Source: Ypsolopha sequella (taxonomy: Eukaryota; Arthropoda; Insecta; Lepidoptera; Ypsolophidae). From it: DNA of 64,000 bases. Location: positions 4,650,001 through 4,714,000 of the forward strand of contig OW204012.1 in NCBI GenBank assembly GCA_934047225.1, in the 5' to 3' direction. Shown piece by piece: positions 27,901 through 51,900 of the stretch (within the stretch, counting starts at the first letter, position 1; the number at the start of each line of letters is the position of its first letter). The position numbers and the translations under genes were made by a program. Under the pieces are notes generated by a model. It did not search any database. It was not told where the DNA came from and saw only the letters and a program-made list of their open reading frames with translations.

Positions 27901-30900
27901 TGTTGATTTTTTTTCCGTAGCGCCTTAATCTACGCGACGGGTATTTATTCGGGTATTTATGTTTTTCACTACTTTTAGGTTGGTAGTTGGTTGGAGTAAT
28001 ATATTAAGTTGGTATCTTACGGTTTTTATATTATGTAAGGTTCTATCTTACATTAATTATTATCATGTATATTGTACTTGTTACAATTAACTTTTGATAA
28101 AGCTCTCTGTTATTTGTAAAAGGTGTGCATCTGTAACGTTACAACACACGGATGCTAACCCTATATTTACTAGTATTATACTTTTTGTGTATGTAACATT
28201 GGTGCTCCTAATAAATAAATAATTTTTCAATGCATGTGCTCGTAAAGGCCCACTTTTTATGCATCAAAACCGAACAGAAAGTCGATTATTTTGCCCTAGG
28301 GCTTTATTATTATTATTTTTTTTTATTTATTTGCAATGGTTGGCTAACCTGCAGCTTTTCCTGTGTACCATAGATGTTATACTTTTTTTTCCACTGTTTA
28401 ACGGCTTTGGATACAATCCTTTTGAGCCAATAATAATTTAAAGTTCACAAGATTATATTTGTTTTATTTCCTCACACTATGCATTGAAAAACGTAGTATG
28501 ATACACGGGCGTAAAAGCAATAAATTACTCGGTTACGTTTAAAACACTCGCTACGCTCGTATTTTAAATCGTCCTCGTAATTTATTCCTTTGCGCCCTTG
28601 TAGCATAAACTACTATTATTTTTTTATTTATTTTATTTATTTATATATATATATTCATTATACATCACAGTGTATCGAAAACCTTTCGAGGTTTTTATGT
28701 ACACTCAGTTCCAAGATTCGTCTAATAACATTATTTCAACTGTCTGTCTCCTGGCTACTTAAATAACATTGATCAACTTATAAAACACAAAAACAAAATC
28801 GCGGGTAGAACTACACACCACTAAGTAACACAGTCGCATACTGTTTGGAATGCAGAATAACAAAATAAGGCATGTTTGTAGATATCAATTACATTAAGGG
28901 GATATATCGTCAAAATCGACACTTTTTAAAGTGATTTATCTGCTGTTCAAAAGAAGTCCCAAGTTAAATAAACTAGTATAACAATTTTTGGACCTTTTTC
29001 TAGATTTTGGACTATCAGAAACGCGATTGGAGGAATTTCACTCGATAGAAATAATTATGGAAATAAGATCTAAATTTACACTTTTTTTGATATTCTGACA
29101 AATTGGAATGGCATACAGACTTCAAAAATATGTAATTAAATGGGTTTTAACAGTACCTAAATTACTGGTTATGGTAATTTTCATAGCTATTTTATTTGAT
29201 TTTGTACTAATTTAAAACCGACTTTTTGTAATTTTTCACCGATTCCGTCCCTCCCGCACTGCGAGTTTTCCGCCTGGAGTAACGGGGACCTTTGCACGGA
29301 TGATATATTACCTTAATTCTTAATGCTACTATTTTAAGGACTAGTTGAGATTACCACCAGCTTATTACAATAAGTTTGCCTTATTAGATATGAGATAAGG
29401 ATTTACACTGCTAACTGCTATACAGGGTGATATATTATTAGACTACTGTGTTTGATACAATTACTTTTACATATTTAATAAACAATAATAGGCATGCAAT
29501 AATAGAAATTATAAGTAAATAAACTATAATAGGTACATAGTAGTAGAAATTATATGTAAATAGATAAAATGCAGTGCATAATAGATACATAGTGCTGTTT
29601 AAATAAGCTCTAAGAAATTTAGTTTTAATTTACATTACTTTCGTTAATTGATATTCGTTCAAATAATTAGTTCATGCCGAAAAAAAATAAAACAGTCACA
29701 AAGTAATGTTGTTAATTAGATAATGTGATAGGTGGGCTTGTTTCTTGTCGCAAATTGGGTCGACTTTTGGAGCAATTTTGCTCAATTTTCATGTTCCCCG
29801 CGCGAGCTAGCCAGTCAGCCACCAAAAACTAAATCTTGTCACGAACCCCCTACGATCAACTGGCGAACCCCGGGGTTTACCCCACTTCGAGAAACCCTGA
29901 CATAGAGCAATGCTTTAGACTTTTTCAAGACGTTTCCGAATATCCCGCAACATGTGGACTTTGAAAAGGTGCTTTTTGTTAAAAGTTTTCTTTGCCATCG
30001 CTATTCTAGCGAATAATACGTATTATGTCTGATCTACGTCTAGTCATTGTTAATCAAATCAGACTTCCTAAGTATTTACACTTGGTTTATTGGTTTTTAA
30101 TGAAATTTTATTGGGTTACGTTTTGCTGTAGTTTTTTGTATTATTACAATTTTAGTTTTATTTATGTGTAGTTAATTTAATTTAATTTTCTTTCTTTGCT
30201 ACTAACCAATTATTAATAAGTCTTACTAACATGCTATGGATCCAAGTGGTCCGAAATAAAAGATTTTTATTTTTATTTATTTTATTACAAATTTCTGGAA
30301 ATACTAAATCCATATCTGTTACTAATTCCGCTAACTGATTTGGTATTTCCGCAAGTGCTGCAATATCATCAGTAAAACGAATGAACTGCATTTTTGTTTC
30401 ATTAAACTTGACTACCTTTTTCCTGACTGTTATTAGTTTTCTGACTGCAGATTCTATAAAGATGTTAAACTTAATAGGTAAAAGTGGACACCCTTGTCTT
30501 ACTCCTTGTCTAAATTTTCTTTTTTCTTTCTCTTCTCCTGTTTCTACCTTTGTTTCTTGGTTTTTGTATAATTCAAAAATAGTTATTCTGTTTCTATAAC
30601 CTAATCCTAATTTTAATGAGGGAAACTTATGTTTTCTATTGGGTAGTTTTTAAATTCAAATTTAAGGTGTCAGAATACTTTTATTCGCCCAGTAAAGACT
30701 TAGTATTTTAGTACGCTAAATATAGCGTACTAAAATACTAAGTGGGCAAAAGACTGGGCGAATAAAAATGTTGAAACCTGCGACTTGAAAATACAAATTT
30801 GGGTTGAGTTGAATAATTCTCAGGCGAACAATATTCTATTTTAGTGACAATTTAATATTAAGTAATATTCTGTTTCTATAACCTAATCCTAATTTTAATG

Positions 30901-33900
30901 AGGGAAACTTATGTTTTCTATTGGGTAGTTTTTAAATTCAAATTTAAGGTGTCAGAATACTTTTATTCGCCCAGTAAAGACTTAGTATTTTAGTACGCTA
31001 AATATAGCGTACTAAAATACTAAGTGGGCAAAAGACTGGGCGAATAAAAATGTTGAAACCTGCGACTTGAAAATACAAATTTGGGTTGAGTTGAATAATT
31101 CTCAGGCGAACAATATTCTATTTTAGTGACAATTTAATATTAAGTAATAAAAATAGGGACGTCGCCTCGCTCCGCTGCGCTTCGCTCGGCTCCTTATTTT
31201 ATTTTACATGTAAACCTTACACGCTCCTTCTCGCTTCGCGTCGTCGCACCTATTTTTGACTTTTGGTGAAATAATTTCTATTTCATACTTTAAATTCGCC
31301 CGCTCAGTATTTTTAGTCGCACGCTTTGGTATTTATTCCGGACACTTAAAGTCGCTAATTAAATTTTTATTCGCCCGATTAATAATTTCCCTTTTCTATT
31401 TAAGGCGTATGACCACGCTAAATAAGCAACTCGATGTGTGTCGGTACAAATATCAACGGAAACGACATTGAAATAATGTTCATTTCAGCGTGCCTTGAAA
31501 AGTGGCTGTTACGACAACCACTAGTAGGTGTCGATTGGGCATTCTAAAACAGTCATTCGTTTAAACACCTTCACTTCACTCCGAGCTCCGCTCCGCTCCG
31601 CTCCGCTACGCTCACTCGGAGTGAAGTGAAGTTGTTTAAACGAAAATCTGTTTTAGAATGTCCAATCGACAAAGCTTTAGAACAGAATCCATGACGATAA
31701 AACCGACTCTTTCATCATGTTATATCTAGAACTCTGCGTTGTACGTTCCGTAATGCACGACAGCAGAATCAAACCTTACAAATCTTACAATTAATTTAAA
31801 ATTAGCTCTCGCTATCGCAGTAGGAAAATAAAAACACCTGTCAATAATTTTTATAGTCATTGCATGTTTAGCGTTTATTATATTCACAAGAACATGGAGT
31901 TTGTGAAGCAACCATTAACACTGCAACTTGAAAATATTTGTCCTAACTTGAAAAATATAAATTTTCGACATGGAAAGCTTTTACCTAATACCATTCGATG
32001 TATAATATGTGGTCCATCGAATTGTGGTAAAACGAATTTGATGATTGGTCTACTTTTACACGAGAACGGATTGCGCTATCGTCATGTTTCCGTGTATTCC
32101 AAAACACTTTATCAACCTAAATACGTTTTTCTAGAAAAGGTTTTAAAACTAGTACCTAGTGTATCATTTGCAAAATACCAAGAAAATGAACAAGTGATTA
32201 GCCCACAAGATGCAAAACGTAATTCAATTATTATTTTTGATGATGTATCATGTGAAAATCAGAACAATGTGAGAGACTATTTCGCAATGGGAAGACATAA
32301 AAATATAGATTGTTTTTATTTAAATCAAACATATAGTAAAATTCCTAAACAGCTTATTAGGGATAATACTAACTTAATTGTACTTTTTAAACAAGACGAT
32401 ACAAATATGAAACATATTTACGATGAGCATGTCACTACAGATATGACATGGGCACGATTTCGTGAAATGTGCTCTAAAATATGGAGTAATCCTTATAGTT
32501 ATTTGGTGATAAACAAGGATTGCAAAAAAAATAAAGGTTGTTACAGAAGAGAATTTGATACATTTATCACTTTCAATTAATCGTGGGCACACGGCTCCTA
32601 TAAATAAAGTATTTTTAATATCATATATCCATATGCTGTTTGGTTGCTACAGGAGCAATAAGTTTCAAAACCATATTAAAAATGGAAAAAACTCTAAAAA
32701 AGAAAATCGTTGATGCTGCCGCAGCAATCAAGAAAAAAGTTCAAAAAATGCGAGACATTGAAACCGATAATGAAAAAGTCTTACAGACGGTCTTAAAACC
32801 TATTACTGAACCATTAAATCACATGATGGAAGCAAGTAATAATCGTAATAACAAACACATAAAAAAACTGAAAAAGGATGGGTTTAAATCTGGAAGTAAT
32901 TCATATTTGGATAAAACTTTTACTGAAAGCGAAATCAGTGAAATAGATGATGAAGATAAAGAAGAATGTAATGAAGAGGGTAACACCGGAGGTAACCAGT
33001 TTGATGACTCATTTAGGACAGTATCTTCAAAATCGAGTGCTAAAGACACGTCGATTTGGTCTTTATCTGCCGAAGTGATACGTAACGTTCCTTTTGGAGT
33101 TAGATATGATCATGGAAAACTCAAGTTGGGTTTTGCAAATGTAACGATTAGTGATGACTTAATTTCAGTAGCTGGATGTAAATATAAAAAAACAAAAGGA
33201 TTATTAGAATTGTTAGTCAAAAAGAACCCTGATCTGAGTTTGGTTACTAAAACTGACACTGCATGCTATAAACGAATGTTACTAGACACAAATGCTCATA
33301 GACAAGGTTTTAATCCAAGTAAACCGATCAAAAGTAATAAAGGAAAAAAATACATGCAAGTTATTAAACCATTATTTAAGCTACGACGTGATACTGTAAG
33401 TACAGAAGATAGCACTGTACAAGGAAAAGGCTTACCTATAATGAAGAAATATAAAAAAAATGTAGATTTTGTTTATTGGGATGATCCAAACGAGTTAGTA
33501 GAGAGACTAAAACTACTAATTGCTTCACGTGATGCTGGCAATACAGGACTTGACAACGAGATCATATCAATAATAGAAGAATTGCAAGAAGCTGGTATAA
33601 TAAATAAATAAATAAAATAACTTTTTATCTTTCCCCTCAGTTAAAAGTTTATTTTTGCTATAGTCACTCGTTAACATGAATATCGATAAATTCGGTCACC
33701 ATGTACACAAAAGATTGCGATTGACTGATATGTTAGATTCTACTGAAAGAAGTTTGACGAGAGAAGAGAACGGTGATTACGATTTACAACAAAGGAGATT
33801 AAAAGGCGTTAAATTTCCTGTAACGTCAGATGATGCTGTGAATAAAGAATACGTAGATAAAACTAAGCTGGACTTCTATACCAAGAAAGAAGTTGATGAA

Positions 33901-36900
33901 ATAGTTGTGGGTGCCATAAAAAAACTTAAAACTCGTTTATACGTAGACATTTATACAAAAGGGGAAATAGACAAGCTAATTAAACTAACAAAAAAATGAT
34001 TAAACAACACATAGTTAATGAAATTCATAAAGCAGCAAGAAAAAATTTTATACGAAGAAATGTTGTTTTAAAAGGCATAGATGATTTATGGCAAGCTGAT
34101 TTAATAGATTTTAAAAATTTAAAACAGTTCAATAATGGATTTAAGTATATTTTAGTAATTTTAGATTGTTTTTCTAAATATGCTTGGGCAATACCAATTA
34201 AAACAAAAACTAAATCTGAAGTAAGTCTAGCGTTTGAAAATGTTTTCAAGAAGTCATCTCGTCATCCAATTAACTTACAAACTGATATGGGTACTGAATT
34301 TTATAATGAAAAATTTAAACAACTAATGAAGTCATTAAATATCAATCATTATTCTACTTACTCTGTTAAAAAAGCTTCAATAGTAGAAAGGTTAATAAGA
34401 ACACTGAAAACAAAATTATTTAAGAGTTTCAATTACAATGGCAGTTATAGATGGTTTGGAGAACCACTTAATAATGTAATTAAAACATATAATAATACTA
34501 AGCATCGAATAACAAAACATAAACCTATAGAGGTAAATAGTAAAACAGCTAAAACTGTAATGGAAAATATAAAAAAATCTCAATTTACCATAAAAAATGG
34601 TTTAGCAAAGTTTAAGCCAGGAGATTATGTTAGAATCAGTAAATACAAAAGCGAGTTCGAAAAAGGCTATACACCTAATTGGTCATCAGAATTATTTTTG
34701 ATTAAAAACATAAATAAAACGGTGCCTATTACTTACAATCTTCAAGATCTTAAGAAAGAACCAATACTAGGATGTTTTTATGAGCAGGAGCTTCAAAAAA
34801 CTAAATATCCGAATGTGTATTTGATTGAAAAGATCATTAGGAAAAAAGGTAATAGTTTATTTGTGAAATGGTTAGGCTTAAAGGAAAATAGTTGGATTGA
34901 TAAAAAGGCAGTGATTTAAATGAAGTCATCATTTCGTTATCAGTAATGCGAGGAAAAGGACTTCTCAATTATTTAATAAATAACTTGCCTTTTGAGTTAC
35001 ATTTACCTGGTTACAATTATTGTGGACCGGGAACAAGACTTAAAGAACGTTTATCAAGAGGTGATAAGGGTGTTAATGCGTTAGATGAAGCTTGCAAACG
35101 ACACGACATAGCATATTCAAAGTACTCGGATTTGGATAGTCGACATAAGGCAGATTTAGAATTGATAGACATGGCTAAACGAAGACTTCGTTCAAATACT
35201 GCTAGAAGGGGAGAAAAAATGGCTTCGTGGTTAGTAAAAAAAGTTATGAAAGCAAAAGTTAAATCTGGTGGAGGAATAAAGAAATTCAAGACTGTGATTT
35301 CTAAAATACGTAGGGAACTCAAGAAGCAAAAAGCATGTAATAAAGATAAAGCTATAAAAATTGCTTATTCAGCAGCAAAAAAACTTCTTTCAGAATCAAA
35401 AGTTCAATTACCACGTGTAATACCTTTACCAAAAACAGGAGGAATTCTACCTTTGATTCCAATTTTTGCTGGTTTGTCAGCATTAGGAACATTGGCTGGA
35501 GGAGCAGCAGGAATCGCTAAGACTGTGAATGATTATAAAGCTGCGCAAAGAAATTCACGTGAATCTGAGCGACATAATAAAATGATGGAGTCATTAGTTA
35601 TAGGAAAAGGATTGTATATTAAACCGTATAAAAAGGGAGAAGGCATATTTTTAAAACAAGCAAAAAACTGAATGAGAGGCTACCCAATCGTGCACTTACT
35701 AATTTAGAGATTTTAAGAAATGCTGAGGATATACCGTATTTTAGAGGTGTTTTTATGAGGGACAGATTACCTCAAAAGCCTAGAAATATAGAATGCGGTA
35801 TAATTAACTTGGATCAATTTAAAAACCCAGGAACTCATTGGGTGGCCTATATTAAATATAAAAATCATTGTGAATACTTTGATAGTTATGGTGATTTAAA
35901 ACCACCATTAGAGCTAATAAAATATTTAAAAAAAGATAATATTTTGTACAACTATTCTAAATATCAGAATTATAATACTGTAAATTGTGGTCATTTATGT
36001 CTTTCATTTTTAAGAAATTATTGGAATAATATTGGTATAAAACAGTAAACACGGTTTTTTATTGTATCATTAGCATAATGTCCTTCACACTATCCATTAC
36101 AGGTAATAAATCGGTTTTAACTACTAACTACGCTCCTTCGTTACAACTTGATGGCTTATATGAATGTGCTTTGTTATATATTTCTACTTTTAATTCTATC
36201 CCAAATGTAGACAAAACAAATAATAAATTTTATTATGGTGATCAAGATGTTATTGAATTGCCTGAAGGAGCGTATGAACTTCAAGATATATGTGATTTTT
36301 TAAAAGCTAATATCAAAGATGCTACCTTAAAATTATACTGTAACAATAATACTTTAAAAACATACATTTTCTGTTCAAAACCTATGCATTTTGAAAAAAG
36401 TAATTCTCTTGGTAAATTATTAGGATTTGACAACCAAGTATTAGATGCATATAAATTACATAAATCACAGTCACCTATAAACATTTTGTCTACGACAGTG
36501 ATAAGGATCGAATGTGATATAGTGAGTGGTTCATTTATCAATGGTGTATCAAGTCATATAATTCACGAGTTTGCGCCGAACGTACCTCCAGGATACAGAA
36601 TCATCGAAGTACCAAAAAACGTTATTTATTTTCCTGTTAACCAGAACAATATAAGTTCTATGAATATAAGAATATTAGACGTCCATAACAACTTACTAAA
36701 TTTGCGTGGTGAAGAAATTCAATTATATTTTCACCTGAAGAAACAATGATTGACTATAAGAACGAACATAAATACAACCCACAACTTTTAACCGGAATCA
36801 CTTTAAATCGAGCTACGTATAAAGAAGCAACTAAAAAGAAACCAAGCTTGACGAAAGCAAATAAACAATTTCTTAAATTTATTGGATTACTAAAATGAGT

Positions 36901-39900
36901 ATTTTAAACATAGTAAGTACACCAAACCATGACAACTCTATTGATGGTATTGAATTTCATTCATACAAGCCATATATTACAAGTTTTAATAGAAATGATG
37001 AAATTCGCATTCCAATCAACCAACAGGATTTATATGTACTACCGTCTGCTAGTACATTATATTTGGAAGGTACTGTTAATGTTTTGAAAAAAGAAGCGAA
37101 GGAGAAAGCTAAATGCGTACATTTCACGAATAATCCGTTCTTGTACCTTTTTCAAGACATTCGTTACGAATTAAACGGTATAGAGATAGACAAAATTAAG
37201 AATGCTGGTGTAACTACTACGATTAAGTCTCTGCTCTCAATGAACGAAAACGAATCACGTATGGCCAAAGCTTGGGGTTGGGATATTGATGGTTCTAAAA
37301 ATGATCAAGGAGGTAACTTTTCAGTTTCCATACCGCTTAGTAATATCCTAGGATTTGCTGAAGATTATAAAAAAGTGATAATGAACTGTAAACATGAACT
37401 TATTCTTTTGCGAAGTAACACAAATCTGAACGCTGTTAAACTAAGTACGGGTGAAGTTGTGGAAAATATAATTATGCATAAAATTGTTTGGCGTGTACCA
37501 CATGTGAAAGTGTCTGACAAGGAAAGAATCAACTTACTTCGACTGTTAGAAAAGGACCGTTCCTTACATTTAGCCTTTAGAAATTGGGATTTGTATGAAT
37601 ATCCATTACTACCACAAACAACTAAACACACATGGTCAATAAAAACTTCTTCTCAAATTGAAAAGCCTCGATATGTAGTTATAGCTTTACAAACAAACCG
37701 AAAGAACAGTGGAAGTGCTGATATGTCACAATTTGATCACTGTAACTTACGTGATGTTAAGGTATATCTTAACTCTACATATTTCCCTTATGAAACCTTA
37801 CAAGTGAATTTTTTGGAACAAAAGTTTGCTTTATTATACGAACAGTATGCTAGATTTCAACAGTCTTACTACGGGTGTGACAGAGTAGAGCCACTTTTGA
37901 ATATCAAGCAATTCAAAGATTTAGCGCCATTGTTTGTTATTGACTGTTCACGACAAAGTGATAACATAAAAATAGGACCTGTTGTTAACGTACGAGTGGA
38001 AATAGAGAGTAATTCTGAAATACCTGATCAGACTTCTGCATATTGTCTTATTTTAAATGATTGTATTGTAGAATACAAGCCTTTGTCTAATATAGTTAAG
38101 AAAATATCATGAATTTTCTAATCATTGATGTACAAGGCTTTAAAAACTCTAAAAACGAATTCATAGTGAAAGAATTGGCAATAGCAACTCTTGAATACAC
38201 TTACATTTTTTTAGTAAAACCACCATACCCTTACCTAAAATTAACTAAAGAAGAAAAGAGACAAGTGTCATGGATTGAAAAGAATCGAGGAATTTATTGG
38301 AGCGAAGGTTATATAGATTACAGTGAATTTAAAAAAATAACTTTTGCTTATTTAAAGAACAAAAATATTTTAGTGAAGGGTTGTGAAAAAATCAAGTGGA
38401 TTAGAGAATTAAGCAATAATTGTAGAATAATAGATGTCGGCGATAAAGGTTGTCCTAATATTAAAAACCTTCATGATATGTATGGAAGAGATCTTACAAA
38501 CTTTAACTGTATACATCATAAAAATCAATGCGCTTTAAAAAATGTGTTATGTCTCAAAAAGTGGTACCATGAAAATAACATGTATGCATTTAACTTTTTT
38601 TATTGACACAAAAATTAAAATAAATGATTTGTTAGTCCCTATATACAGGAATTTTATTTTCACATCCATCCAGGTTCAAAAAGGAAATGTTGTTTTTATA
38701 TAATGTAATAAATAATAGATATTTTTACTTCAAAATCAAGTATATTTTTTCTTTTTCAAGTTCTTTTTAATTTGCATAACCATACTTTCTAACAAACGTC
38801 TTAAATTTGTATTATTTTGTAAATAAATTTCTACTTATAAATTTCAATATACTAATACTTTACGTTGAATCACACATGAAAAAATATATTTCATTGTTCT
38901 AAAAAATATTACATAATTAAGAATTAACAAAACAATTTAAATTATTTATTTCATTTTTTCAAAATGTTGAGAAGGCGAGGTTGTCCGTCATTTTGCATTA
39001 CCTGGGAAAAAATAAAAAATAAATTAAAAATAAATAAAACTAAATACATTTTTTGTTTCACTACAAGGCAAAAATAAAAATGGAACGCATACAAATAACA
39101 AAGAAAAAATAAAAAAAGTAGTGTTATCACTTACTGTGATGTTGTAAAATCCGAACGTTCAGCCATTTCTTTGCTAATGAGAAAGAGCGTATGCGCCGCG
39201 TGTCTCAGCACAGGATCAGCGCTGTCGTACACGCAGTACCCGCTTTTTACAACAGTCCTCACAGCCACACTGTTGTTGTCTTCTGTGCTGTACTCCAGTA
39301 TTTCTATCTTCACTTGGAACAAGGGTACCTCCTTAGCCTTTTCACGTTCACCCAACACGCACAAATAGGAAGGTCGCGCGAAGTTGGCCATAGTAAAAAT
39401 CACGCGCGCACTGTTTGAAGACTAGTTGTCAAGTGAGTGAATATTCAATGTGTCGCGCGCTGCAGCAATTCATACTTGGAATCTTACTCAGCAAAATCAT
39501 GTTTGAACAAGTTTTGGGTTCATTGTGTAATTGTGTTCAAGCAAGCTCGTTTTGTTTTATTTACATGTATCAATGTTTTAACGCATAGGTAATTCGATAT
39601 GAATATTTGATGATGATTTGTGACTGATATTAATTTTATTTTATTTAAAAAAGGATGAAGTAGTAAAATAAAAAATAAAGATTAATCCAGTGTTAATTTA
39701 TTTTTATTAAAATGCATAATTTTTTATTACTAAGGTAGATAAGAGATTACAAAAGAAATTTAAAAAAATATGCGCTGCCTATACTTACAATTTCATGCTC
39801 AATTAACATACGAGGAGAGGTCAGACAGTTTAACAAAGACATTAAATTTTGTAATGATGATATTCTTTTCATTCTTAAAGTACTTTCAACCTTATCAATA

Positions 39901-42900
39901 AACTTACAGGCTATAGCGTAATCTGCTACAAGTTCTGCTAATCTTAAATTAGTACACAATGCAAAAGTATTCAAAGCCTCTAAAACCATGTTAATGAAAT
40001 TTATGGAACAACGTTTATCACAATACATTAGTTCAAAAAGGAATAATTTGTTCTTATCATAAGTATTATTTACAGATACATGGAAGAGTTGCAGTTCCTT
40101 AAATTCTTGGTAAATGAGGTACCATTCTTCCAAGGATAAAAAGAAATATTCATTTTCGTTGAAAATATAAACTTGTGGCTTAAAATCTTCTTCAACCCAT
40201 AGTCCTGTTTTTATCTTTATACTATTAGTGTGAGAATAAATCCGCATTAACACTACACAGTCAAATAAGAAACTTTCACTCATTGCTTCAGTAGATAAAC
40301 TAAAAAAGAGAGTTCCAGTGACCCCATGATAAAGTAGACATTTTGTCTTTTAAAATAACACGTTTATCATCATTTGCTGATAATGCAATTTTGTTTTGTT
40401 GTTGTGTGAAAATTTCATGTTTAAGAGATTTGAATACAATATTATTTTTTCTTATTACATCATTTTTCTTTAATACTTTATAGTAATCGTTAAATTTCAC
40501 AGTTTTAGTTACATGCTTTTGAATTCCTTTTGCTTTTTTTAGTTCATCTTTCCTTGTTTTAATACAGTACAATTTTGATCTCAAACCGACAAACTCCGTT
40601 ATCACCTGTCCACCTAGTTCATCTTTAAAGAGGCCAGGCACTTTTTTGTTTAAAATTGGAATACCATAACAATTATCTTCTTTATAATTACTTGTATCGA
40701 AGTGAGAAATAAAATGAGATTTCAAATCTTCATAAAAATTGATACAGTCAATTGCATATAAAAAACTGTCGGTGTCACAATAGGCCATAGTTATCTTTTC
40801 TCCATAAAAAGGTTTCATTATAGAATAGTGAAAATCATACATATGAGCCTTAGATATTTCTAATACGGAAAATCCAATGTATATAGGTTTATCTAAAGTA
40901 ATTGTTTCAGGTTTCATTTGAACCGCTACAAAGTCTTCTGTGAAAATGGAAACACTATGAAAGTTGGGCCTAGCGATCAATTGTTCTGCACATACACTCT
41001 TCTTTGTTTTATTCCTAGAATCGTTCCACTTGTTGACTAACTTTACATCAACTCTTTTCTCGACATCTTCCAATGTCTTTCCAAAAATACTATTATTAAG
41101 TAGTTTAAAAAAATCTTGTTCAAATGTAGATTTTGCCTTTTTTCGTAACTCAGTATTCATGTCAATGTATTGTTTTAAGTATTGACCTTGTTTGAACTGG
41201 ATGACTCTATGTACTTTTTTTAATATCAATCCATGCTTAATGCATATTTTTAGATGAGCAAAATGGATGACATATTGGAATTTATCATACAAATTTGGAA
41301 TTAATTTTGAAGTTTTAGAACCCGGTGGAGTGAACTTCTGAGCACAAAATGGAATGTCATTATGGTAATCATGTAAATGTTCCGGATATTCTAAATCAAC
41401 TTCCAGAATGTAACCAACGTCACCGTCAATGGGTAGACTGTAAAAATTCATTTTAGCAATTTCCGACTGACTTAATAGTTTAAAATCTGATAAAGGTAAA
41501 TAATCACACATTGCATAACCATAGAGATTATTACAATCAATGTAAATTAAAAAATTGTTTTTAGCTGACGGGTCGTAACTTGTCAAGTATTTGTTATTGG
41601 CTTTTGAGTATCTAGTGGAACATAAACATATTCCACCACGAATACCTTTTTGGATCATTCTTATTATTTCCAAGTCGTTTATTAATTCTAACTTTACACC
41701 TGTTTTTAATAACATCGCGTCAAAACTTAAACTAGAAGCTGTCAGATAGAAACTTGGATCAAGTTTATAGGTTGCCTTACAAGTTTTTCGAAAACTTTCA
41801 AATACATCAGCAAGTAAAAGGACGTCTGACTTGATATATAAGTCAGTGTATTCTCCTAAATTATGGATATTAAAATAATGCCAAACATTTTTTGCATGTT
41901 CGTAATCTAAATCTGAAATATTGCTGTTATTTAATGTACTATAAAAACGTTCTTGAGGGGGGAGCTGATTTTCTTCATAGGTATTCCAGGTAGTCATATA
42001 TTCATAAGGATACACTCCTTTCCGTCTTATAAGGGCAAAATTTTCGTGGGAGGGAAAAAAGCTTGATAAATGTGTAAAACTATCATTACTTAAGTTTGCA
42101 GCAAGTTTTTCTAAGCTAGTGCTTAAAAACTTGAACGAATCAACAAAACGAACTGGCATGAAATCCTCATTATTAATGAGAAAAAATTTTGTAAATGATA
42201 TGTAATTTTCTTTATTTTTTGCTATAACTTTTATCCTACCAGATAATTTACCTAATTGTCGAATAAAGAGATGACTGTCATAACCAGATAAATTATGAAA
42301 AAAAACTGGAACGAACTTTGGCAGACGAAACTTAATGTTGCAATATGAATGAGCTGCACCTCTATAGCGTCCAGTAAGATGACAATGATCTCTCACCTTG
42401 TCATCAAATAATATTTTATCACAAAGAAAACAAAGTTTTGCTTGAGCAAAATTAACTCTATCTTCATCAGTTAGACGTATTGGCAATGGGGACTCGAAAA
42501 TATTGTAAATATCAGTAATATCAAGCAGTAGCGATTCTAAAAACTTTTCTACACAATCATGTCCTCGGTAGGATACGTATTTGTTACGTGCGCTATTGTA
42601 CGAACATACTATATAGTAAGCAAAAGCAGCTGGTACGTGTTGTTGCAGAGATGTCGTGAAACTTGATCCAGGTTCGGACTCATTCTCAGCTGGTTTTAAT
42701 AATGACTCGAAGTCAGCGTATATAACAAAAGGCATATCTTGCATTCGTTCATAATTTTTGAATTGAATGAGCGTCCCTTCATTAGGTAATATAGTTGCAA
42801 CACCGTTGCAAACATGAGCTTCCAGTTTATGATTGTTATCAAAAAATATCATACAATCCTCGCAGAAGTATATTTTTGAATGATGTTTAGTAAGTTGTTG

Positions 42901-45900
42901 GCGAAGTAATTTGGATAAATTTTTTATTAAACAGTAATGAGTACGTTCACCATTTTCAATGAAAAGTAAATTAACATGATGTTGTTTTCGACATTCAGTT
43001 TTATACAATGGTCCAACAATTTTAGTATTATTTTTAAGACCATAAATATTTACACTTATGCCAGGATTATTTTTTTCAAAAATTCTGATATCCGAAAATC
43101 CTACTGGAAAAGTCATGTTTTTAACATTAAGGGCACTTTCAAAATGTGGGTAAGCGGATGTTCGATGTGCATTATTTTTTGCCGGGAACAGCGCTGCCAT
43201 GATACACCATAAAAAGCAAAAGTTATCTGCATTTTGAATGTTAATGCAAGCGCGTTTTGATTTAATACCTTTTGGTAAATCGATATAGCTTGAAGCTCGC
43301 AGTGGGTTATATTTGTTTATGTTTATTTCCAAATACAAATTTCGTACAAAAGCCCAACCACTATCTCTTTCTTCAAAAACTTCAATTTTTTTGGTAATTG
43401 CCTGAATAATACTTGAAAAAGTGTATTCAAAATTGTAATTTTGATGCAAGACAATGTTTTCAGTAGCAAAAGATTTAATAGAATATGAATCATTTTTAGG
43501 CAAAGAAAATTCAGAAAACAGCTCAAAATTAACCTTTAGGCTAGAATGAGTTTGCAATCGTGCTGAGAGCAGATCACGTACGCGACGTTGCATGCGTGAT
43601 AAGAACTGGGCGGGCGGGCGCGCGCGCTCGTCACAGGCTTCGGGGCTTTTACTGTCCCGACCTTCAGCCTCGCAGCGAACGCGGTATGACGCTATGCGAC
43701 TGCGGAAAGCGCTATGAATTTTCTCGATTCCGTGTTGCTCAGTAATTGCACTGTTATCTTTATGTAAAGTGCTTTTTAAATGAGCAGAAAAGCTTTTACT
43801 TTTGACTGATGTGTCACAAACTGAACAGAAAATAGTATTAACCATGTTGCCTTGTAATTTTAGATTCTAATTTAGTGAATAAGGACACGCTACCAGGCAA
43901 AATATTTGACTAGTTAGAATGCCGTGTTCATCATTGATAAGGAGTTCTAAAACTTAGTAAAATTAATTTTTAGTTTGGCATTTAGACAATAAAATGTTTG
44001 ATTTGGTATTACGGTAAAAATAACAATTAATTTATTTTACTGTAAAGAAATACATATTTATTTTAACTTAAATATTAAGTGCAAATAACATAATAAAACA
44101 AAACTCAGTGACAAAAAGAAAAAAAAAAAACTTAAGAGTGGAAACGAAATGTAAATTATTAATTAAACATTTTTTTTCTTTTTCTCACTGAAGAAAGTCC
44201 CTTCCTCCGTGAATTTCCTTTTGCTTAAACTAATCGCCTTTTTTAAAGCGACGAATTCAGGGGATTCTGCTTCCCCCTGCAGGCGCAACCACACGATAGC
44301 CTTCTCGCATCGTTCGATACCGTCGAGGTCCCGCACCTCCTCGACGTTATACAAGCGCAGCTCCGCCAGCAGCGCTCCTTCCAGTTGTGCCGTCCGACGT
44401 AGCACCCCGCCCGGAACTTTACGCGAGAGCACACTCAAAGTGTGCGCAGCTTTGCGGCGAACCTGCTCCGTATCTTCGTCGTCGGACCCGAATAGCCAGT
44501 CCGTCGGGTCAACGTTGCTTGCAGGTGGGGCGGGTGCTGGCTTCGTGGAACGCTTCGCCACTGGCTTGATCTTCTTCTTGGAGCTATAAAATAAAAAACT
44601 ATATTATAAACAACTTCCTCTGTGGTGTAGTCGTTCGAGTACTCGAGTATTAATCTCTAGGTTGCGGGTTCAAATCCCGTAGGGATAAAATTTTATATTT
44701 TAAATGAAAATATATAATTAAAATATGGTTTACGTAAAGGATGATATCAAGTAAAGTGTTTATGACACGGTAGAAATAGTACTAGTAGTAGTAGTCTGAT
44801 AATGAATTATCAAATTGGAAAAAAAAAGTAGAATAATTAGATTTTCACTGAAACAAGAAATATTATAAAGACTGTCTTATAAACATGTACAAGAAACTCA
44901 CCTTGAGCCTTCGTCGTCGGAATCAAAGAAAGCCTCGCTGTTCGTTTTCTTTGCGGCTCGCTTGGAGTTGTAATTAGTTTCAGACCTAAGAAAATAAATT
45001 ATATGATTAGTATATTACATATGATTACACATGAGTATCATTAAAGTAAGAAGTGCTTTCTAATTTAAAGACAAAATAAATTTAAACAAGTGAAAAAAAA
45101 AAAAAAAAAACAGGGGAGCAACAAAGAAAAAATATCTGCAAAGTGAAACATTATTTAACAACTTACGAACATTATATCAACTGCTTTTATCCTCAGCTTG
45201 ATTTTTTATTCTTTTTGCAGGCAGGTAGCTGTGATACAGGTGTCAACTGTGGGCACTGATGTTCCGAATGTTGTGATCAATTAAGTTTTCCAAAGCTTTT
45301 ATTGGAAGAAAATGTTCGACAAACAATGATTTTAGCAGGGGTAACGAACCTTTAGTTGTCTTGTAAAGAACACCATGATGAGTATAATTTAATAATAAAA
45401 TTGCATAAGTAAATTTATTAGCAATCAAAATAAATGAAACTATAAATTGAATTACTTTAATTTAAAGATCAACTAAGTTAAAATTTCATGAAGTAGTTGT
45501 TAAATACTACCTCCATGGTTCAAACATTTCAACTCATTATGCGGAGGGGTACACATCAGTGTTCGGTCTGCATACTTTAGGAGGTACGTGAAGCTAAATA
45601 GGCTAGGGTTATATTGTTGTCTGAAGTATAGTAATAGGACTCGTCACCCATAACGCATAATTGTAGTAAAATCGTCGTTGTAACATAGGTGTACGAGTGT
45701 GATCTGTCACTTGCATTTCTTTGCATACCCAGAAAGATCACTGACACCTCAGAGATTTATGTTGTGATGATTTACAAGTAATTTGTTAAAAACTTAAATA
45801 TACTAAATATTATTAGAGTGCAATACAAACTAGAAAATATCAATCAGAAACAAACCCAAAGACAAGAATATGAAAAAATTCCCCGGGCCAGGATTCGAAC

Positions 45901-48900
45901 CTGCGACCTCTTGTTATCAAGACAAGCGCGCTACCAATTGCGCCACCGAGGTTCCTACCCGGACCGGTGAATTCTTCCATCATACTTGTCCACTGTTATT
46001 TTTGCTTCTGCTTGATATACTAGCTTGTACAACACATATAGAACGCTCACGAGGGCGTTATGTGATTTCACGCCTTGTTCTTAGAAATCTGATTGATATT
46101 TTCTAGTTTGTATTGCACTCTAATAATATTTAGAGTATTCATAGCGATGGATTTCGCAAAATAAACATAAACTTAAATATAGTTTTCTACCCCTGAATTT
46201 TAGAGAATACCTCAAAGACTTATTGTTTTCCGTTTTCAATTTTGTAATAATTCTCGGATTCAAGACAAAATGAAATCCACGTGTTACATATACAGGGTCG
46301 TATTTTGTATAACCAATTCATAACATCTATATATCAGAATGCCTCTGCGGTCTAGTGGTTTACATCTCAACTAGTGATCTAGAGGTCGCGGACGTATTAC
46401 TCGTATCCTTTACAAAATTGGTACACCTAATGGATTTCATGTTGTGCAGTATATGACGAACAATATTATACAAAAGCTTGTATAAATTGACTGGTGGTTG
46501 TGGAACAGGTGAAAGAGGTGTATTAGTATCGTAGCAGATAGAAAACTAACTACCCATCTGAGAGACTTGCGTGACTGTATGTACGTATGTTTGTAATATC
46601 TACTATTAGTTATGAATGGGTTAAAATATATTTTGTTTTATAACATAAAAAAACAAAGTTATTCAAGGGTTTAATGTTAAATTCATATTTATTATAGTTC
46701 AACAAGCAAATGAGTTAAAAGTACTAGTACAGTAAGGAAATTATAAGGATACATAATTTTTCTTATTCTTTTGTAAAACTTATAAAAAGATTTCTTTTTA
46801 TCGCATCCTGTATAATATAGGAAGTATTGTTTGCATGTGTCCGACATTGTCCAAATAATATGCTTAGTACCTATAAAGGTGTGTACTCAATAGGGTTTAT
46901 TACTTTTATTATATTACTTTATATACCTATAATATATATATATATTTTGATGTACAGATATTTCATTGACGAAGTAAAAACAATGATCTTCTCTATATTT
47001 ATAGCAATGTTTAGTAAATGTTGTGAAAAAGTAAACTGTTAGATAGATGCTTAGGTATTGAAACGTATGTTGTTACAGAATCGTCTCCGTTTCCGCTGAC
47101 ATGGTAAAACGTTCACTACCTATCTATACTAGTAGTCAGTGCCAAGGTTACAACTTGCATAATCCTCGACTAACTTAGTGTATAACCTTCCTTACTTTGT
47201 TCCATCGTGTTGGGACAGGAAAAACGATCGTCAGCATTCATGTTATTGTTGTGAAATTAATTTGCTAAATCATTTTAGGGATACGTATTTATCAAGTAGA
47301 ATCCATTAAAACCGTGGGAACGTAACTTAAGAACTCTCTTACTTGTATTAAAAAATATATCGTCTTTTGTACGTATTAACCAAAATAAGCATTCACTTGG
47401 CCGCCTCTGTGGTCTAGTGGTTCCAACATCTTACTCACTAAACCGGAGGTCGCGGGTTCAAATCCCGTAGGAGCACATTTGTGTTCGGTCTGCGTGCTTC
47501 GGAAGGCACGTTAAACTGTGGGTCCATATAATTAAGTACTGCAACAGAAACCCCTTCGAGGATTCATGTTTCAAACATTAAAACATGAGATACAAACATT
47601 CGTTATTAATAATTAATAATATATTAGGTTTATGTATGTAGCACAAGGTAAATAATATAGTTTCATAATTTTAAATAAGTACAAGTTCATACTTAGGTAA
47701 CTCTATATATTCGTATAAAATAATTAAAAGTAAGTACAGAACCCAAGATAATAATATAACGATCACGATAAATTATATGGTTTGGTCCAAGTTAAACGAA
47801 AAAGCAATGAGTAAAATATTTTTTATCTTTTTAATTTTATCATCTGAATTTTATTTATCAAAACTAAACACTAAATAAAGCATTGCTAAAGAATAACATT
47901 TAACAAAATTAAAATTAATTATTATGTTTTTTTATTATTATTATTATTTTTTTTTATATAGTTTACTATATAACTTATTTACTTCTATTTCACGTTATTT
48001 ACGTAAAAACCATACTAGTTTTAGTTAAATCAGTAAATTGTATTTTCACAATAATCATCTAAATCTCGTTCCGCTTATCGCTCTGCTTATGTATTAGACA
48101 TGTAAACATTCTCCATGTTATCATTATGGACATTCAGCAAAACTTGCAGTGTTGCTGTTATACCGACTTAGTCGATGGTTATAGGGAATTTATCAATGTG
48201 TAGCGGGAAAAAAATGTTTAATGATTTCTAACGTCTTTATTACCCGTAAGTCACCCTTGGTTGTTTAGAAAAAATCGTAATTTGTAAAACATTTTAAGCA
48301 AATTAACTCATTTGTTTATTCGATTCTCCTTACTCATGCTGGAAGATTGATTGAATAGGAATTCCCTACTATAAACAAACAGCCAAAGTTAGTTCATTCG
48401 GTTGTTGTCTTCATCGCTCATTGATTTATTTATTTATTTATTATTTATTTATACAGCATTACAGATATATATCCATTGAACTGTATAATTAAGTTTTTAC
48501 AAATACAAATAAAAACATTCACAAACATAATAGTTTACACATGTTTGATATCAAGACTAAGTGACCAAAATACTAATGATTAATATATCAACTTTTGTTG
48601 ACATTATAATTGAAGATACCGGTTCTTTGTATTTGATTTTGAGAATTAGGTACGACTACAAATATCTTATTTTTATATTAAACTTATTGATTATTATAAC
48701 TGGAAAATTAATTAAGGTCTGTCTGTCTACTACATAATATGTACGTCTTTTAATATTTGTTATTTATACATTGATGAATTATTAAATAAAAATAAACTTA
48801 AATACACCAGATGACTAAAAAAATAACAAAAATAATATTATTGGTTGATACAAAATAGTTAAACGACATTCAGCGGATTTTTAGCAAATACTTTTTTTTT

Positions 48901-51900
48901 TTTCCATATCTAACGGAATTGTTAAAATGGTCTGGAGACTTTAAATCTTGTAAAACGGTAACACTGATTAAACTTGTTACTTTGTAATGCTCTAGTGAAC
49001 AAGACGGTGGTTTATTTTTATGTGAAAATGTATAGCGTAAGTTCATGTCCGGGAATGACACAAGGTTTTCCTTTGTGGGGATCCACTTTTGGTTAGCTAA
49101 AGCCTCAACCAGCTAGCGGGTGCTAGACGAGGATCCACTTTAAACTATCTAAAAGACCCCAGCCAACTAAGTTGAAGATCTTGAAATATGTGTCTAGTAC
49201 TTTGAGTGACATGAACTCTTATTAAGACAGTATTGTTGTCTGAGTATATATTATTCTGATATGCTAAAAAAAGGCCTCAACCAACCACCTCTACTGTGGA
49301 AGGGGATCCAACTTTTTTTAGCTTCAGTAACCTATTCTCGGATGTGATACGTGCTTAATTAAATTTAAAAATGTTTGTGAGTATTGATAGAGTCAAGAAA
49401 CTTATCTGACAATTAATAGCGTAAGTACACGTCTTCGATTGACACAAGGTTTTCCTTTGTGGGGACCCACTTTTGGTTACCTAAAGCCTCAACCAGCTAG
49501 CGGGTGCTAGACGAGGATCCAGTTTAGACTAGCTAAAAGACCTCAGCCAACAAAGTCGAAGATCATGAAATATGTGTCTTACTTCGAGTGACATGAACTT
49601 ATTCTACTAATTTTCTCAAATTTATTAAGTCAGTATTGTTGTCTGAGTATAATTTTCTTTGGTAAGCTAGAAAAAGACCTCAACCAACCACCACTGCGGT
49701 GGAAGAGGATCCACTTTTTTTACAACTAAAGAAAAATTAAATTCTTAGATGTAATACGTACTTAATTAATTACCTCATATGATTAGTAGTTTGTGATTCA
49801 ATTTCTATATAAACATCAATAGAGTCAAGAAACAGCTGGAGGTGAGTCATAATTAACGAGTAAGTTTTTTATTTTCTGTTGTGTTCTAAATCATATTTAG
49901 TTATCATCGATTAGATATTTTTTTTACATCCTGTTCTGTTCTAAAGCTTTGTCGATTGAACATTCTAAAACAGGTTTCGTTTAAGGGTCGGTGTTCCGAG
50001 ATTCGGGGTTATGACTTTTTAAGACAAAACAGGGTTCGGGGTTATGGCTTTTTTAAGATAGTAAAATATTAATTTCTGAACAAAATAAATACCACTTGTT
50101 ACCTTACAAGATGAAGTGCAGGTTCATTAAAAAAATCACGGCAATAATGTATAGTAACTTGAAAATCCTGTTTTTTTTTTTTTTTTTTTTTTTTTCTGAA
50201 GTTACTATACATTAGTGCCAAGATTTTTTTTAATGAACCTGTACTTCATCTTGTAAGGTAACAAGTGGTATTTATTTAGTTCAGAAATTAATATTTTACT
50301 ATCTTAAAAAAGCCATAACCCCGAACCCTGTTTTGCCCAATCTCGGAACTCCGACTCTTAAACAACTACACTCCACTCCGAGAGAGTGAAAGAGTTAGTT
50401 TTTAACGTGTTTTATCGTCATGGATTCTGTTCTAAAGCTTTGTCGATTGGACATTCTAAAACAGATTTTCGTTTAAACAACTTCACTTCACTCCGAGTGA
50501 GCGTAGCGGAGCGGAGCTATTTGTCCTAGGACAAATATTTTCAAGTTGCAGTGTTAATGGTTGCTTCACAAACTCCATGTTCTTGTGAATAAATAAACGC
50601 TAAACATGCAATGACTATAAAAATTATCGACAGGTGTTTTTATTTTCCTACTGCGATAGCGAGAGCTAATTTTAAATTAATTGTAAGATTTGTAAGGTTT
50701 GATTCTGCTGTCGTGCATTACGGAACGTACAACGCAGAGTTCTAGATATAACATGATGAAAGAGTCGGTTTTATCGTCATGGATTCTGTTCTAAAGCTTT
50801 GTCGATTGGACATTCTAAAACAGATTTTCGTTTAAACAACTTCACTTCACTCCGAGTGAGCGTAGCGGAGCGGAGCGGAGCGGAGCTCGGAGTGAAGTGA
50901 AGGTGTTTAAACGAATGACTGTTTTAGAATGCCCAATCGACACCTACTACCACTGCGTCTCCGGCTAGCGCAAAATAGGACAAAATAATACTTTTCGCAT
51001 GGACGCCATGAACGAAAAAAAAATTTGAACTTAAATTTTTTAGATCTAAAAATGTTTCTATAATTTGGTGAAATAATAATTAACATCGCTTTAGGCGTTT
51101 GGAAGAAGAGAATTCTTGTGTTAATCATGTGAAACTTTCGATGACTTCGTTTTTTTTTGTCAAAACTTACAATAGAAAAACAGTTTATGAAACTTAAAAT
51201 TTATTTTTGACTCTATAATGCCTATCATATATTTTTATGAAAGTTTTTGGACCACCCGTGTGGGAGGAGTAGGCCTTCAAAGACAGGTCCAAATTGCAGT
51301 TCGCCTTAACTAACCTCTTAACCTTTGCCTCGTTATTTGAGGTATCCCAGAGCCTCAAATAATGAGGAACATACCTGCCAAATTTCAATAGACTTTATTC
51401 CCGTAGATGGTGACAGGGTTCGAAGTGATAATAATCATTGAAAATTATCTTTCATAATTATCAAGATTAATGCGGGTTCATAATTATCTTTGATAAGTAT
51501 AATCGATATTTTAGTCACGAAATTATGAACAAAAAATTAATAAAAGTTTACCTTGATTGTAAAATGTGTATAATTTATTTACTAAACTACTCGCTTCGAA
51601 TGTAAATGTCGATATGTAATACCAGTTAAAAAAGGATTGCTAGCCTTATATATGTTTGATAGGTATCGGATAACAGGTGGTAGAGCTGATGCCGGGCTCG
51701 ACTGTGAAGGTACCACCATCTTACTTGGAGACCCCCTCGAAGTAATTCGGGGGAGAGTAAGAGGACAGCTCACAGGCAAAAAACCAGGAGGCTCACCATG
51801 CCTGGGACCGATGGATGGAGGTATATCCATCCTTAATAGCCGGGCCTTATATGGAACAGACTGGTGACCGCGCTCACCAACCCGCGTGCCCAGCGTGTGT

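Follow-up and report, generated by a model that had tools for sequence, protein, structure and literature searches.

The window, as we call the whole stretch of DNA analysed here, comprises 64,000 nucleotides of contig OW204012.1 of the lepidopteran Ypsolopha sequella and harbours an element that encodes an A32-type ATPase, an rve integrase, a PLA2-domain protein, a double-jelly-roll capsid protein and a protease (PRO). By the ATPase, the integrase, the capsid protein, PRO and its terminal inverted repeats (TIRs), the element is a Polinton/Maverick. The gene for the PLA2 virion protein and the protease gene that follows it overlap in different reading frames, and this junction, with its candidate signal for programmed -1 ribosomal frameshifting, is the subject of the present study (Table 1).

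The junction of the PLA2 and protease genes

The arrangement given in a preliminary description of the window is exact in the sequence: an in-register A AAA AAC is followed immediately by TGA, and the -1 frame is open through to the protease. In the 0 frame, the codons at the junction are GCA AAA AAC TGA. The -1 frame lacks any ATG between 35632 and 35755, and the first one comes after the protease-like residues PYFRGVF, again as had been described. It lies inside the protease fold. In the eight other plus-strand genes of the element the ATG is found at residue 4-24 of the open frame, as compared to residue 42 in the protease. In all open reading frames (ORFs) of the element, 3,623 codons in total, A AAA AAC occurs in register twice. 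When the codons of the PLA2 gene are shuffled, it falls among the final 13 codons in 0.42% of the shuffles and immediately ahead of the stop in 0.03%. The second occurrence (36614-36620) lies within the ORF 36030-36749, the presumed gene for a minor capsid protein, which has no Pfam match. Since other in-register heptamers of the X XXY YYZ type are common in the ORFs of the element, the heptamer alone is little proof, and the case therefore rests on conservation.

Table 1. Features of the junction and of the surrounding element (positions in the window)
Feature	Position	Strand	Remarks
PLA2 virion-protein gene	34946..35671	+	0 frame, ATG to TGA; C-terminus KKGEGIFLKQAKN; Pfam PF08398, E 1.5e-15
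Slippery heptamer A AAA AAC	35662..35668	+	X XXY YYZ register; position unchanged in 66/67 copies
0-frame stop TGA	35669..35671	+	adjoins the heptamer; other families use TAG or TAA
-1 frame, stop to stop	35632..36048	+	adenain-like protease; first post-slip -1 codon 35668-35670
First protease-frame ATG	35755..35757	+	end of predicted strand 37-42; T at -3; unlikely start
Stem, 5' arm AGGCTACCCAAT	35677..35688	+	8 nt past the heptamer
Stem, 3' arm ATTGGGTGGCCT	35837..35848	+	within codons of the conserved HWVAY motif
Polinton/Maverick element	31522..50949		TIRs 31522-31945 and 50527-50949, 424 nt, 99.5% identical

The protease frame yields an AlphaFold model with a mean predicted local distance difference test score (pLDDT) of 81, in which a helix is formed by residues 24-30 and a strand by residues 37-42. 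Met42, encoded by the ATG at 35755, is the final residue of this strand; a start at this codon is implausible because, according to the model, the helix and most of a strand would be lost. In the VIA-align alignment, residues 1-2 of the human adenovirus protease correspond to residues 19-21 of the model, and residue 13 is the first to be read in the -1 frame once the slip has occurred; in the model, the protease domain starts six to eight codons past the slip. The His, Gln and Cys residues of an adenain-type cysteine protease are present (H69, Q112 and C119, invariant in 23 alignment rows), and Foldseek matched the model to 4piq (E 3.8e-05) and 1nln (E 4.1e-05). As judged from the model, the gene after PLA2 encodes an adenain-fold cysteine protease, the PRO of Polintons. 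The structural matches of the model to bacterial and host deubiquitinases and SUMO proteases are a reflection of the common fold. The structure model of the PLA2 protein was poor (pLDDT 52.6) and was not used.

Conservation of the slippery site

In the genome of the window (866.8 Mb in 151 contigs), 150 of 215 candidates were scored. The 67 distinct protease copies considered here are the best matches and samples per family and thus a non-random set, and they were grouped by eye into six families. AAAAAAC is present in 66 of the 67 copies and in all six families, the only exception being a damaged copy (L032), and it lies precisely 78 nt ahead of the FRG codons in each family. The stop codon follows immediately in 64 of the 67 copies, and TGA, TAG and TAA are all used across the families. 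In the remaining three copies (L045, L049 and L089), the heptamer is kept and the adjacent stop is lost, so that the 0 frame continues for a few codons. The conservation of the heptamer among relatives that the preliminary description had asked for is thus found. The absence of an ATG in the -1 frame, which it had also named for comparison, holds for part of the set: there is none before FRGVFM in 42 of the 67 copies and in three of the six families, whereas the other three families have one upstream of the heptamer. These three families and two copies of the window family make up the other 25 copies.

This conservation can be compared with the divergence of the surrounding gene. At the four-fold silent sites of PLA2, from which family 6 was left out as too short, the window family agrees with families 2-5 at 24/61, 25/65, 28/62 and 27/69 sites (38-45%), and family 5 agrees with families 2-4 at 16/65 to 22/61 sites. 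The Asn codons of PLA2 are AAC in 19 of 80 cases, yet AAC is used at the heptamer in all six families, even though C or T at its last base is silent in both frames. These results bear on the idea that the junction results from chance or decay, i. e. that an indel has disrupted the frame of a relic and that Lys-Asn persists owing to demands of the protein. A run of six As is unremarkable in a gene rich in AT, as are in-register X XXY YYZ heptamers here, but 29 copies share 93-100% protease identity, the TIRs of the element are nearly identical, and the arrangement is unchanged across the six families. We attach next to no probability to this explanation.

A long-range stem downstream of the heptamer

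A structure downstream of the heptamer had been suspected as a pseudoknot within 100 nt. What is found in all six families is a long-range stem instead; a crude scan gave no compact H-type pseudoknot, with 100 of 100 shuffles equal or better. Rfam had no match within 35560-35960 at E values up to 1. The stem emerged once the sequence 163 nt further on was included. Nine nucleotides past the heptamer, the six families have an invariant GGCTACC in common. In five of five families, searched downstream to 1,200 nt or to the end of the stretch, the sole full 7-bp partner of this motif lies exactly 163 nt further on, and the sixth family pairs at the same columns. Across the families, the stem comprises 9-12 bp with a spacer of 7-9 nt and a loop of 148-154 nt, and the pairing probability is 0.90-1.00. 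Folding of 180 nt gave z values of -2.5 to -5.05 (-3.6 for the window alone). No other 7-bp helix is common to all six families at the same columns in the 203 nt compared, and 97% of stem cells pair, as compared to 21-56% when slid. All seven pairs are kept in 60 of 63 copies, and six pairs in two copies of the window family and in L090.

When the codons were redrawn synonymously, the probability of keeping the seven pairs was 0.084-0.090 per family; all six families kept them together in 0 of 20,000 redraws, and any shared helix with its 5' arm at +5 to +10 appeared in 0 of 1,000 sets. Because the families are related, these figures overstate their independence; three independent lineages would, by arithmetic from the redraw probabilities, still give about 7 in 10,000. 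Taken together, the silent-site divergence and the synonymous redraws indicate that the signal is conserved beyond the protein constraint.

An alternative way to bring the two frames together is splicing of PLA2 to the protease frame. Acceptor-like YAG triplets are indeed present near the junction, but there is no GTRAG donor-like site in 34946-35760 (the scan covered this form of donor in this interval), and neither A AAA AAC nor the adjacent stop nor the stem would be expected from splicing. We therefore regard splicing as extremely unlikely.

Homologous proteins and a distant relative

The search with the PLA2 protein gave 1,807 matches, and our counts refer to the 120 that were listed. Lys-Asn is present at the C-terminus in all 120; in 115 of them these are the last two residues, and the other five have one or two residues beyond. 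In every one of the 120, an NNA codon could encode the residue that precedes Lys-Asn; the figure for residues overall is 78%. Moreover, a GxG followed by a short tail (35636-35668 in the window) is found at the C-terminus of 118 of these homologues, and the tail has exactly nine residues in 105.

For the protease, 418 matches were obtained; the counts again come from the 120 listed, and their starts were classified by simple patterns. Spodoptera and Parnassius are among the names that homologues of the two proteins carry. The protein extends to a KKL motif, three residues before LP, in 23 of the 120, begins between LP and FRG in 12, and begins at an internal Met in 42, which points to truncated database entries for many Polinton proteases. 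We also assembled 33 pairs of PRO and PLA2 proteins, matched solely on the equal size of their source contigs. Seven of the 33 have a protease that reaches KKL, and all seven fit a single DNA read in the 0 and -1 frames, which forces A AAA AAY. In 18 of the pairs the protease call begins at an internal M-R-D-like Met, and 8 have another start.

Scans of viral contigs found a single contig (records L001-L004), and scans of a genome-contig collection and of phage records gave no match. This metagenomic contig, L001, encodes an A32-type ATPase and a protease that is 37% identical to that of the window, and by these two proteins it is, as far as its sequence tells, a Polinton-like virus. Its protease lies in the -1 frame of an upstream ORF that has no PLA2 match. 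The sole overlap (2977-2998, 22 nt) contains A AAA AAC at 2980-2986; codon shuffles of L001 yield such a site in 0.45% of the cases. The protease frame has no ATG, CTG, GTG or TTG before the FM codon. Folding of the first 74 nt past the heptamer is somewhat more stable than that of shuffles (z -1.8).

The A run of this contig, A11 as compared to A6 in the element, speaks for transcriptional slippage, by which RNAs of both frames would be made. However, A6 is short for polymerase slippage, and conservation of the final C, of the register and of a stem 7-9 nt away is what ribosomal slippage would lead one to expect. Transcriptional slippage is to our mind just as improbable as splicing.

Weighing the evidence

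Several observations weigh against frameshifting at the junction or against the strength of its support. (i) The families 2, 4 and 6 (L035-, L057- and L095-type) have an ATG in the -1 frame 15 nt before the heptamer, which overlaps a codon for Cys in the PLA2 frame. In two window-family copies, an ATG of the -1 frame lies immediately ahead of LP. In part, therefore, relatives do possess an in-frame ATG upstream of the N-terminus of the protease, the finding that had been named as speaking against a frameshift. (ii) Among the listed proteases, 43 of 120 begin at most five residues before LP without KKL (one of them, P0037, actually begins further in), and an own start in some lineages is possible. 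Similarly, in 3 of the 33 pairs, as judged by its distance from LP, the Met of the protease would overlap the PLA2 stop. (iii) Most of 95 further, more distant proteases have a start Met well upstream of FRG, and the frameshift trait is therefore not universal. (iv) The six families are of common descent and come from a single genome, and families 2, 3 and 4 are closer to each other, agreeing at 27/73 to 43/67 four-fold sites (37-64%). (v) Covariation in the stem is weak, with a non-significant shuffle control (165/500), because the stem hardly varies; silent-site invariance is 4/8 in the arms and 8/34 outside (plain Fisher test, p = 0.15). In the six families, 45-122 nt after the heptamer alone fold no better than shuffles (z -1.6 to +1.7). 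(vi) Finally, the long-range stem is absent from L001, where the helix check gave one weak 7-bp match.

The first three points are also those that favour a separate initiation of the protease, be it by reinitiation after the PLA2 stop, by leaky scanning or at a codon other than AUG, for example the CTG at 35668. Yet in most of the copies no ATG precedes FRGVFM in the -1 frame, the window has none at the PLA2 stop, and the interval from 34946 to 35755 contains 12 ATGs when all frames and the PLA2 start are counted. In L001, even the near-cognate codons are missing ahead of the FM codon. Moreover, separate initiation leaves the conserved heptamer, stop and stem unexplained, and families 2, 4 and 6 retain all three despite their upstream ATG. 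Since families that lack an upstream ATG altogether retain the signal as well, we do not take the partial presence of this ATG as a refutation, and we consider separate initiation very unlikely.

A model for the expression of the protease

Our results make it very probable that programmed -1 ribosomal frameshifting makes a PLA2-protease fusion. We infer from the sequence that slipping would be confined to a fraction of the ribosomes: all would proceed through the PLA2 gene as far as A AAA AAC, and most would terminate at the adjacent stop. The others, held by the stem, would slip back by one base and read on as ...K-N-L-N-E-R-L-P-..., thus producing the fusion. By analogy to the retroviral Gag-Pro protein, the fusion may enter the particle via its PLA2 part. 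Self-release of the protease might follow, for which the conserved GxG, some nine residues ahead of the slip, is a possible site.

This model bears on the questions whether Polintons make particles and how their protease is dosed and packaged: if a conserved frameshift ties the protease to a virion protein, this would be evidence of selection on particle maturation. It is possible, though we put this forward with considerable reserve, that the frameshifted protease is an established trait of a large clade of insect Polintons, which arose separately or was inherited in the distant Polinton-like virus, and that the slip places a pVIc-like C-terminal peptide of a membrane-active protein before adenain, thus setting packaging, dosage and activation together.

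Other features of the element and its surroundings

Several Polinton families are represented in the genome of the window by large numbers of almost identical copies, which suggests bursts in the recent past. A target duplication of Polintons has 6 bp; as a candidate flanking the element, there is a 4-nt CCAC match alone. For the 1188-aa ORF at 40300-43866, the presumed polymerase, the sole Pfam match is Endonuclease_7, below the cut-off; in PMC5803895, the same domain note is given for POLB of the Sf Maverick. An open frame of 200 aa on the minus strand (39747-40349) overlaps the end of the presumed polymerase gene. To the left of the element, there is a 46-nt inverted repeat (30698-30743 and 30980-31025) with 96% complementarity, the arms of which are 236 nt apart and are each palindromic-looking themselves.

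Comparison with known systems

In our search, which left most of the subscription literature outside, we found no description of a PLA2-protease frameshift in Polintons or adintoviruses. In a review on recoding, Polintons are unmentioned in the part of the text that was covered (300,000 of 475,107 characters; PMC5009743), and the frameshift passages of PMC5803895, PMC12567637, PMC8363768, PMC10120064, PMC12721341, PMC11089739, PMC10675110 and PMC8537868 contain no frameshift of a Polinton protease. The one case found is a hypothetical hexon-adenain shift: according to the portion of PMC11071296 at hand, -1 shifts based on KnotInFrame predictions were proposed for the Penton and the Hexon-Adenain (Hexain) of adintoviruses. 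This is a related virus group, and adenain is likewise placed after a virion protein by a proposed -1 shift. There, however, hexon or penton rather than PLA2 is upstream; in that portion, conservation is not given and the term 'PLA2' has 0 occurrences.

The gene order is shared with the Sf Maverick 1 and 2 elements of Spodoptera frugiperda, in which a PLA2-containing CAP, the fourth small ORF, lies directly before PRO (PMC5803895), and a Spodoptera protein named CAP (P0200) ends in PKN. In contrast, a CAP-PRO frameshift is not mentioned in that text, where both uses of the word concern errantiviruses.

A further parallel concerns adenovirus, where the C-terminal peptide of the core protein pVI, freed at IVGL|G, activates adenain (PMC4246237). 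The PLA2 proteins have their GxG about nine residues before the C-terminus, and the protease fold is the same. In adenovirus, a freed peptide is linked by a disulfide and the protease has a separate gene, whereas a peptide bond made by frameshifting is proposed here. The resemblance of the GxG tail to the pVI site is a lead only.

A counterpart in layout is provided by the gag-pro sites of retroviruses. In bovine leukaemia virus (BLV), the stop stands directly past the heptamer. AAAAAAC is listed for BLV, human T-cell leukaemia virus (HTLV-1/2), mouse mammary tumour virus (MMTV) and intracisternal A particles (IAP), with a typical spacer of 6-9 nt (PMC3835772). These sites and the junction share A AAA AAC, a protease that is encoded in the -1 frame downstream of a virion protein, and a stimulator after a spacer. 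This likeness is one of layout alone: the retroviral protease is a retropepsin, whereas the one encoded here is an adenain-type cysteine protease, and there is no retropepsin or Gag homology. Moreover, upstream here lies the gene for a PLA2 virion protein, the signal resides in a DNA transposon or virus, and the stem has a loop of about 150 nt. If our reading is true, a lineage of DNA elements joins those that use -1 frameshifting for their proteases, in parallel to the retroviruses.
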